A stretch of DNA of 38,691 nucleotides, taken from positions 1-38,691 of the forward strand of contig DAOWHW010000032.1 in the NCBI GenBank assembly GCA_030641225.1. Direction: 5' to 3'. A program made the translations under genes and the position numbers. This document shows, piece by piece, positions 10,848-16,415 of this stretch. The DNA is from an archaeon. GTDB lineage: Archaea > Nanobdellota > Nanobdellia > Pacearchaeales > UBA284. The notes under the pieces are model-generated. The model searched no databases and had not been told where the DNA came from. It saw nothing but the letters and a program-made list of their open reading frames with translations. The number at the start of each line of letters is the position of its first letter. The stretch's first letter is position 1.

Positions 10848-12683
10848 ATGAAAATGGCTAAAAAAACAGAGAAGAAAGGCATAGAAAACATGGAAAAAAT
10901 GGAAAAATATGATCCTATTAAAAGTATTGGGGAAATGGAAAAACAGATTCCTGAAAAAGTAAAAAAAGAAATAGAAAAAGTTAGAAATAAATTAAAAGAA
11001 TTTAAGAAGGCAATTTTAAAGAAATTTCCTTATATTCAGGCCATAGGCATCTTGCCTCCTTTAGCCTCAAAAATAATTGAGGAAGAAGAAGAAATAGAGA
11101 AACAAAAAGATGAAAAATTAATCCATGTTATAATTATTGTTCCTGACGAAAAGGACAAGGAACTTAATAAATTAATGATTGAGGGAATAAAATATGTTCA
11201 GGGTATCAAACCAAAAATTTGGCTCCACATTAAAACTACCAAGCAGTTATGGGAATTAGGTTTAGATGCTAAATATGCTTTTATAGAGGCAATAGCAATG
11301 TCTCTTCCTTTATATGATAAAGGAATTCTTGGAGCATTGCGTGTTACTTCAGTCCATAAAACATTAACACTAAAAAAATTTGAAAGATATGTTGTTAGTT
11401 ATGTTGTTACTGGCTCTTTAGTAAGGGGACAGGCAATAAAAACAAGTGATGTAGATGTTTTTATTGTTATTGATGATACTGATGTAAAACGTATGAGCAG
11501 ATATGAATTAAGGGAAAAATTAAGAGCTATTATTTATGCATATGCTATTGAAGCTAGTGAAATAGCTGGAGTGAAAAATAAACTTAGTCCTCAAATTTAT
11601 ATTTTAACTGAATTTTGGGAAGCAGTAAAAGATGCGCATCCTGTAATTTTTACCATGATTAGAGATGGAATTCCCCTTTATGATCGTGGGGCATTTATGC
11701 CATGGAAACTATTGCTTCAAATGGGAAAAATTAAACCAAGTCCAGAGGCCATAGATATGTTTATGAGTCTTGGAGAGAGAGTTGCTAAAACTGTTCAAAG
11801 AAAATTGAATGACATAGTAACTGAGGATATTTATTGGGGTGTCATAACACCAAGTCAGGCAGTATTGATGTTATATGGTATAGCACCTCCAGTCCCTAAA
11901 GAAACAGCAAATTTAATGAAGGAAATTTTTGTGAAAAGGGAGAAAATTCTTGAACAGAAATATGTAGATATCTTGCGTAAAATAGTAATAATTTATAAAA
12001 AATATGAACATGAAAAGATCAAGACAATTTCTGGAAAAGAGATAGATAAACTTCTGGAGCAATCTTCAGACTATATAAAGAGACTTAAAGATTTGATGGA
12101 TCAGATAGAAAAGAAAGCAAGAGAGAGGGAGATTCTACAAATTTATGAAACTATTTTTAATCTTCTTGAAGGCATTTTTGGTAAAGCAAAAGAAACAATT
12201 TTAATGAAAAAATTTGAGGAAGAATTAATCAAAAAAACGAAATTACCTCAAAGAAGTCTAAGATTATTGAAAAAAATTGTTGATGCAAAGAAAAAATATC
12301 AAAAAGGAAAACTCTCAAAACAAGATCTTGGAGAAGTGAGAAAAGTAGCTCATGAGCTGACCTCGCAGCTTTTAGAATATACTCAAAGACGTGAGCTTTT
12401 GATACTTGAAAGAAATAAAATTAGTTTATTATATAAAACAAAAAAAGCTGGAAAAGAAATAAAAAAGAGAGGAGAAGTTTTATTGTTCAAAGATGCAATT
12501 TTTATAATTCCTGATATAACCTCAGACACAATTAAAAAATTTAGTAAAGATAAAATGTCAGAAAGTAGCAAAGAAGAAATTAAAAAATATATATCTAAAA
12601 AAGAACCTGTTGAAAAAAGAATTTCTCCAGAACTTTTATCAGGATTAAGAAAACTCTTTGGAGATTTTGAATTAATTTTTTAA
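10848..12683 (+). CDS. Nucleotidyltransferase-domain protein with a duplicated, degenerate N-terminal NTase-like unit
   Basis: GSLVRGQAIKTSDVDVFIVIDD pol-beta-type signature. N-terminal half resembles the second half (KIWLHIKTTKQLWEL...SLPLYDKGI versus QIYILTEFWEAV...GIPLYDRGA). Confidence 0.8.
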   Translation: MKMAKKTEKKGIENMEKMEKYDPIKSIGEMEKQIPEKVKKEIEKVRNKLKEFKKAILKKFPYIQAIGILPPLASKIIEEEEEIEKQKDEKLIHVIIIVPDEKDKELNKLMIEGIKYVQGIKPKIWLHIKTTKQLWELGLDAKYAFIEAIAMSLPLYDKGILGALRVTSVHKTLTLKKFERYVVSYVVTGSLVRGQAIKTSDVDVFIVIDDTDVKRMSRYELREKLRAIIYAYAIEASEIAGVKNKLSPQIYILTEFWEAVKDAHPVIFTMIRDGIPLYDRGAFMPWKLLLQMGKIKPSPEAIDMFMSLGERVAKTVQRKLNDIVTEDIYWGVITPSQAVLMLYGIAPPVPKETANLMKEIFVKREKILEQKYVDILRKIVIIYKKYEHEKIKTISGKEIDKLLEQSSDYIKRLKDLMDQIEKKAREREILQIYETIFNLLEGIFGKAKETILMKKFEEELIKKTKLPQRSLRLLKKIVDAKKKYQKGKLSKQDLGEVRKVAHELTSQLLEYTQRRELLILERNKISLLYKTKKAGKEIKKRGEVLLFKDAIFIIPDITSDTIKKFSKDKMSESSKEEIKKYISKKEPVEKRISPELLSGLRKLFGDFELIF

Positions 12684-14998: not shown

Positions 14999-15364
14999 AT
15001 GGGATTTGGATTTTTTAAAAGACGAGAGGAAACACCACAATCTCCTGAATATATAGAAGTTGATATAGGCAAGGAACAGAAGAAAGTTAAGATTGTTGTT
15101 AGACCTTTTGTTCTAAAATCATTTGATGATGTTAATAGAATTTTAGAAATTTTAAGAGTGGGCTATACAGTGGCTTTAATTGATATTAAACCTCTAAAAC
15201 AAAAGGATCTTGTAGAATTAAAAAGAGCAATTTCAAAATTAAAGAAGACAGTAGAGGCCTTAGAGGGAAGTATTGCTGGTTTTGGGGAAAATACTATTGT
15301 TGCAACACCTTCTTTTGTTGATATTTATAGAGGGGAAAGTGTAGGAAAAGTAGAAAAAATTTAA
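14999..15364 (+). CDS. sepF: SepF-like cell division protein
   Basis: N-terminal MGFGFFKRR, then VVRPFVLKSFDDVNRILEILRVGYTVALIDIKPLKQKDLVELKRAISKLKKTVEALEGSIAGFGENTIVATPSFVDI. Confidence 0.85.
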   Translation: MGFGFFKRREETPQSPEYIEVDIGKEQKKVKIVVRPFVLKSFDDVNRILEILRVGYTVALIDIKPLKQKDLVELKRAISKLKKTVEALEGSIAGFGENTIVATPSFVDIYRGESVGKVEKI

Positions 15365-15372
15365 ATGAGAGA

Positions 15373-16029
15373 ATGAGAGTTCTATTCGTGCCTGCTAAAT
15401 ATAAAGGTTCTTTTTCTCTAAAAAATATTCAAATAAAAAACTTGCCAAAAATTATAGGTTTAGTCACAACAATCCAACACATAGATTCTATAAATAAAAT
15501 AAAAGACTATCTAAAAAATAATAATAAAAAAATAATAATAGGAAAAAGTAAAACCCTACATTATGGACAGATTCTTGGTTGTGATGTAAGTGCAGCCACC
15601 TCAATCCAAAACAAGATTCAAGCTTTCCTATACATTGGCTCAGGAAAATTCCATCCTTTCCAGATTGCAATGGCAACAAATAAACCAATATTTATTTTCA
15701 ATCCACTTACAGAACAATTTAAATTACTAGAAAAAGAAAAAATTCAAAAATTCAAAAACAGAAGGAAAGGTCAAAAACTAAAATTTTTATCATCTAATAT
15801 TTTTGGAATTCTTGTCTCAACAAAACCAGGCCAGAATAAGCTTAAGGAAGCTTTACAATTAAAAAAGAAACTTGAAAAGCAAAAAAAGGAAGTTTACATA
15901 TTTACTTTCGATACTTTAGATATAAATCAACTTGAAAATTTTCCTGATATAGAATGTTGGATTAACACAGCATGTCCTGGTTTAAGTCTTGAGAATCCTT
16001 TTGTTTGGATAGGTGATATAAAAATATAA
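15373..16029 (+). CDS. dph2: Dph2-like diphthamide synthase, short form lacking the N-terminal domain
   Basis: GLVTTIQHIDSINKIKDYL ... GQILGCDVSAATSI...FLYIGSGKFHPFQIAMATNKPIF ... WINTACPGLSLENPFVW. Confidence 0.85.
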   Translation: MRVLFVPAKYKGSFSLKNIQIKNLPKIIGLVTTIQHIDSINKIKDYLKNNNKKIIIGKSKTLHYGQILGCDVSAATSIQNKIQAFLYIGSGKFHPFQIAMATNKPIFIFNPLTEQFKLLEKEKIQKFKNRRKGQKLKFLSSNIFGILVSTKPGQNKLKEALQLKKKLEKQKKEVYIFTFDTLDINQLENFPDIECWINTACPGLSLENPFVWIGDIKI

Positions 16030-16041
16030 ACGCCGGGACTG
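16028..16041. repeat. 14-bp copy of the tRNA-Ser 3' end (AAACGCCGGGACTG)
   Basis: Identical to 16319-16332, which covers the 3' terminus of tRNA-Ser. Confidence 0.7.
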
Positions 16042-16083
16042 TGCCATCAGCTAGGATTTCAAAGCATAGATTTTTTTATTTTA

Positions 16084-16278: not shown

Positions 16279-16321
16279 TCTTGTTTTAAATAGCCAAAGT
16301 TTATATATTCTTTGTCAGAAA

Positions 16322-16402
16322 CGCCGGGACTGGGACTCGAACCCAGACGCCCTTACAGGCACGGCTTTCCAGGCCGTTACGATACCATTACGTGATCCCG
16401 GC
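16322..16402 (-). tRNA. tRNA-Ser (anticodon GGA)
   Basis: Acceptor GCCGGGA/TCCCGGC, anticodon stem ACGGC/GCCGT with loop CTGGAAA, long variable arm. Confidence 0.95.
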
Positions 16403-16415
16403 ATGGAAATTAGAA

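Follow-up and report, generated by a model that had tools for sequence, protein, structure and literature searches.

A dph2 gene in two separate parts in a genome of Pacearchaeales

Structures of intact archaeal Dph2 homodimers have been solved for P. horikoshii (3lzc/3lzd), Ca. M. nitroreducens (6bxm-o) and M. smithii (6q2d/e). The enzyme described here shares with them the fold, three cysteines and the residues G158, H180 and Q237 (CmnDph2 numbering), but it differs from them in being made of two chains rather than one, in presenting a glycine in place of Arg285 and in its shorter C terminus. Like the eukaryotic Dph1–Dph2 heterodimer, it consists of two different polypeptides; the eukaryotic enzyme, however, pairs two full-length paralogs, whereas the present one corresponds to a single ancestral chain cut in two. 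The Dph2 of the nanoarchaeote Nst1 has been listed as split (Nst 222-440; Podar et al. 2013, PMC3655853), which likewise represents two separate Dph2 genes in a small DPANN archaeon, although our genome comes from another lineage of the group. Split Dph1/2 were further reported in Parvarchaeota, Pacearchaeota, Woesearchaeota and Altiarchaeota (Narrowe et al. 2018, as cited in the 2019 review PMC6349945) and, as conveyed by that review, this is the same phenomenon in the same lineages. The gene that we analyzed belongs to this already reported split Dph1/2 of DPANN: domain 1 and domains 2–3 are found in separate genes of one genome, and its nearest named relatives are records titled Woesearchaeota, Nanoarchaeota and Pacearchaeota, which fits the DPANN lineage with a split Dph2. 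Neither a break inside domain 1 nor the arginine loss was found in the literature searched, where Narrowe et al. (2018) is represented by the citing review (PMC6349945) and may contain an earlier mention.

The window, i.e., the whole stretch of 38,691 nucleotides that we analyzed, presents the following features around the gene:

14999..15364, + strand: putative sepF (as named in the preliminary description), an intact ORF whose end lies 8 bases from the start of the dph2 half; also found in front of the half in the genus-mate G001
15373..16029, + strand: dph2 C-terminal half, 218 aa with an ATG start; encodes domains 2 and 3, preceded by what is presumably the final strand of domain 1
15373..15390, + strand: codons 1–6, equivalent of strand 90–95 of an intact Dph2, presumably the final strand in domain 1; modelled as a strand in the intact protein (L245) but as coil when the C half is modelled by itself
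15580..15582, + strand: codon of Cys70, cluster ligand 2 (LGC motif), equivalent to PhDph2 Cys163; Cys in 130 of 130 C halves
15973..15975, + strand: codon of Cys201, cluster ligand 3 (ACP motif), equivalent to PhDph2 Cys287; Cys in 128 of 130 C halves
15979..15981, + strand: codon of Gly203 at the position of the SAM-pocket arginine (CmnDph2 Arg285, yeast Dph1 Arg370); the window reads NTACPGLSLEN
16321-16403, - strand: tRNA-Ser, whose 3' end contains AACGCCGGGACTG

The ORF matches PF01866 over residues 2–207, which correspond to positions 64–273 of the 302 of the profile (E = 3.4e-48), so that its C terminus stops early. It also matches TIGR00322 and scores 154.7 bits against TIGR03682, for which the full-length cut-off is 202.8; this shortfall is expected for half a protein. 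Among solved structures, hits were restricted to three archaeal Dph2 proteins (E = 4e-32 to 9e-29). Only two cluster cysteines are left in this ORF, C70 and C201, as had been noted in the preliminary description. The identity of the ligand at the first of these positions was established for PhDph2 Cys163 (PMC11048331), and the two C halves without an equivalent of Cys201 are both truncated. The ORF had also been described as a Dph2 without domain 1: most of this domain is indeed missing, but part of it appears to be kept. No upstream frame was overlooked, since the preceding ORF is intact and stops 8 bases 5' of the start codon; the pN/pS of this ORF between the window genome and G001 is 0.16.

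The missing domain was searched in the rest of the genome (G000), a MAG of 518,712 bases in 57 contigs that is about 80% complete. A whole-genome profile search revealed two places with PF01866, namely the ORF of the window and G000:C50:1289-1456, the latter within a gene of its own:

Contig C50, L002:1214-1456, outside the window: dph2 N half (stand-alone domain 1), an 80-aa ATG frame, MKYDLEIEK...LDTCYGACDIPNLKNIDLLVQFGHSPWK

This N half covers positions 1–59 of PF01866 (E = 2.7e-12) and ends just before the profile start of the window ORF (position 64). It supplies the third of the cluster cysteines, Cys60, in the motif CYGACD (GACD). When compared to the solved Dph2 of M. smithii, the N-half profile covers positions 4–86 and the C-half profile positions 94–300, such that the two halves together amount to a whole Dph2 minus about seven linker residues. 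The arrangement of three cluster cysteines, one per domain, is thus found solely in the two genes taken jointly (Cys60 of the N half with C70 and C201 of the C half). These results bear out the suggestion that domain 1 is encoded elsewhere as part of a split enzyme, as the window genome and its relatives contain a separate gene for domain 1 that carries the third cysteine.

We used predicted structures to locate the break. The AF2 model of the C half presents a mean pLDDT of 92.9, with the first 20 residues as coil, and all the Foldseek matches of this model with E < 1e-3 are Dph2 (best match against a solved Dph2: E = 1.9e-17, TMq = 0.84). In the model of an intact Dph2 from Bathyarchaeota (L245), the residues aligned with residues 1–6 of the window protein form strand 90–95, a fourth strand that follows three earlier ones and comes before the last helix, which leads into domain 2. 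The N halves, which aligned poorly to intact sequences, were left out of this second prediction. The ORF had been thought to begin at the boundary of domains 1 and 2; this is not exactly the case, since these six residues correspond to a strand preceding the last helix of domain 1 as well as domain 2. Judging from the models, the break appears to lie not at the domain boundary but in the loop that leads to the final strand of domain 1, and the C half may donate this strand to the sheet of the N half. An apparently broken enzyme would then be a natural two-piece form of a noncanonical radical-SAM enzyme, in which the boundary between the pieces seems to cross a cluster-binding domain. Such a two-piece Dph2 offers a ready test of the minimal covalent connection needed for a [4Fe-4S] site.

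The same organization is found in G001, a genome of the same genus whose assembly is a single contig of about 700 kb. The genes upstream of its C half (431776-432423) are those found upstream of the half in the window, and its N half (12271-12465) comes after KH-like and methyltransferase genes shared with contig C50; the two halves are about 420 kb apart. This genome also contains dph5, dph6 and EF-2. A full-length gene at this place in relatives would have pointed to a misassembly; instead, the half gene recurs at the equivalent position in G001, which, as a single contig with both halves in matching neighborhoods, rules out misassembly. Between G000 and G001, pN/pS is 0.27 for each half, which is similar to the neighboring genes (0.16–0.29) and indicates that neither half is decaying.

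The two-gene form prevails in the class. In the family (10 genomes), C-half and N-half matches were each found in nine genomes and both together in eight, and none of the 10 was found to contain a full-length dph2. Across the order (132 genomes), we identified split-type matches in 88 genomes, an intact gene in 19 (one of them cut by a contig end) and no match in 25 (E threshold of 0.001). In a draw of 119 genomes from the phylum, 117 matched PF01866 and nine had an intact gene. Halves were detected in relatives from Woesearchaeota, Nanoarchaeota, Pacearchaeota, Parvarchaeota, Jingweiarchaeum, Altiarchaeota and Huberarchaeum, while the loci fetched from Bathyarchaeota and Aenigmatarchaeota have intact genes. 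The break point is common to the split genes across the class. Both halves lie side by side at twelve loci, mostly with 0–3 bases between them or an overlap of a few bases.

Eight genomes of the class that are 93–100% complete (G132, G140, G141, G155, G182, G198, G215 and G247) present a single weak PF01866 match, apparently to the N half, and no C half was found in them with the C-half profile A3; the C half could have fallen into gaps of these assemblies or be more diverged. G201 possesses an intact dph2 plus both split halves at two other places (L049, L263 and L267). Another genome (G015) encodes a very divergent C half that is extended at length at both its N and C termini, measures 330 aa and also presents ACPG (L255). 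Finally, a C half of the DPANN split type occurs on a contig labelled as candidate division LCP-89 bacterium (L174); this probably represents contamination of that MAG.

We further analyzed the history of the split with a tree built from 70 C regions. The 50 split sequences all fall on one side and the 20 intact ones all on the other (branch support 96/97), and those intact genes that belong to the class group together in a single clade, separate from all the split sequences (support 100/100). Provided that the root lies among the intact genes, a single split event would suffice to explain this topology. We also considered the intact genes as re-fusions of split halves, which is unsupported given the position of the class's intact genes in one clade outside all split sequences. 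The AU test did not formally reject a clade of all the genes of the phylum (P = 0.08), and the intact genes of the class may thus have arisen by either transfer or retention.

The fate of the rest of the diphthamide pathway suggests that the split enzyme works. Across the 132 genomes of the order, dph2 and dph5 are both present in 103, both absent in 24 and discordant in five (P = 4e-21, a value that overstates the evidence because related genomes are not independent). The dph6 gene, searched with PF01902, is gone from the same pathway-less genomes. It was not found with this profile in the window genome either, probably because about 20% of the assembly is missing, but it is present in G001. 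The EF-2 loop HEDAIHRG was observed in all 30 genomes with Dph2 that we examined, including the window genome, and in none of the 22 without Dph2, of which 21 present H[VT]D(HM|NV)HRG. Since the genomes devoid of Dph2 also lack dph5 and have an altered EF-2 loop, the split enzyme almost certainly works. This retention of the pathway with a split Dph2, together with its coordinated loss without Dph2, constitutes the strongest evidence for a functional two-gene enzyme. The parallel loss of dph2, dph5 and dph6 and the change of the EF-2 loop mark the point where diphthamide turns dispensable. In the pathway-less genomes of the order (L112-L131, L150 and L151), the loop mostly reads HVDHMHRG, with one HEDPIHRG, and the histidine is unchanged.

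The SAM pocket of CmnDph2 includes Gly158, His180, Gln237, Arg285 and Asp289 (PMC10669111). In the window protein, the first three are kept, R285 is replaced by Gly and D289 by Glu. This loss of the arginine from the ACPR motif had gone unmentioned in the preliminary description. The substitution R370A in yeast Dph1 abolishes diphthamide, and the equivalent arginine of M. smithii has been proposed to guide the radical towards EF-2 (PMC10669111). Among the 83 split C halves of the order, the residue at this position is Arg (46 cases), Gly (34), Ala (two) or Asn (one), so that 37/83 have no Arg, while G158, C159, H180, Q237 and C283 are invariant. The arginine is kept in 32 of 32 intact genes and in 12 of 12 adjacent halves; of the 116 dispersed halves with the site in a wider set, 18 lack it. 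Its loss is a trait of the lineage and is clustered on the tree (four changes vs. about 27 in shuffles). No single alignment column was a convincing source of a compensating Lys or Arg, and one subclade reads CxGLARDD with an arginine nearby. Most arginine-less genomes keep dph5, those examined keep the canonical EF-2 loop, and arginine-less relatives also have dph6. Because dph5 is mostly kept, we read the loss of arginine as an altered active site in a working enzyme, and not as decay; the change to Gly would accordingly reflect a modified active site. A more specific proposal is that, throughout the lineage, the split Dph2 dispenses with this arginine both for cleaving SAM and for the transfer to EF-2, by means of a rearranged active site that the splitting made possible or necessary; this is plausible, if on balance somewhat doubtful. 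The arginine loss would be a natural counter-example to a residue that is essential in yeast, and we regard it as the most interesting open question.

Taken together, our results indicate that the ORF of the window is very probably one subunit of a split, working Dph2, whose catalysis must differ in detail since the equivalent of R285 is a glycine. The gene on C50 would provide an 80-aa domain-1 protein carrying the first cluster cysteine, and the gene at 15373-16029 would provide domains 2 and 3, the second and third cysteines and an N-terminal segment that is a domain-1 strand in the intact enzyme. The two chains would assemble non-covalently, with the strand of the latter completing the domain-1 sheet, and the assembled halves would jointly hold a three-cysteine [4Fe-4S] cluster. 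The unit would presumably dimerize like the archaeal Dph2–Dph2, cleave SAM into a 3-amino-3-carboxypropyl radical and modify the histidine of EF-2, possibly without the SAM-pocket arginine, before Dph5 (and Dph6) complete diphthamide. One could argue from the two cluster cysteines of the window chain, and from a C half that is predicted to fold confidently alone (pLDDT 92.9), that this half works by itself as a reduced Dph2 whose cluster has two cysteines, the domain-1 gene being irrelevant. We consider this extremely unlikely: a domain-1 gene accompanies the C half in most genomes under equal constraint, and residues 1–6 form a strand in the intact model but are predicted as coil when the half is modelled by itself. 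The preliminary description had listed such a two-cysteine enzyme, along with decay, as options, and both are contradicted by our data, as both halves are under purifying selection (pN/pS of 0.27 each) and the third cysteine comes from the other gene, being present in 42 of 42 N halves.

That the ORF is a decaying gene, or the artefact of an assembly break or a frameshift in a normal full-length dph2, is hardly credible. The MAG is fragmented (57 contigs, about 80% complete) and some relatives do have full-length genes, but the single-contig G001 presents the same half with the same flanks and a separate N half, both halves are constrained alike (pN/pS 0.27), the break point is common across the class and the intact genes form a separate clade. 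It is also conceivable that the halves assemble but that the arginine-less enzyme performs other chemistry, for instance another 3-amino-3-carboxypropyl transfer, or leaves its product unfinished; the presence of Gly, Ala or Asn instead of the SAM-pocket Arg in 37 of the order's 83 split enzymes and the loss of diphthamide in yeast Dph1 R370A (PMC10669111) point in this direction. This is very unlikely given the invariance of G158, C159, H180, Q237 and C283, the retention of dph5 in most such genomes, the presence of dph6 in arginine-less relatives and an EF-2 loop that is canonical in the genomes examined and changed where the pathway was lost.

Immediately after the dph2 stop codon, positions 16030-16043 of the window read AACGCCGGGACTG, a string that is repeated at 16320-16333 within the 3' end of the tRNA-Ser. 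A search with Rfam found no second tRNA remnant next to the dph2 half. The repeated string after the stop codon is possibly the remnant of a tRNA-targeted insertion.
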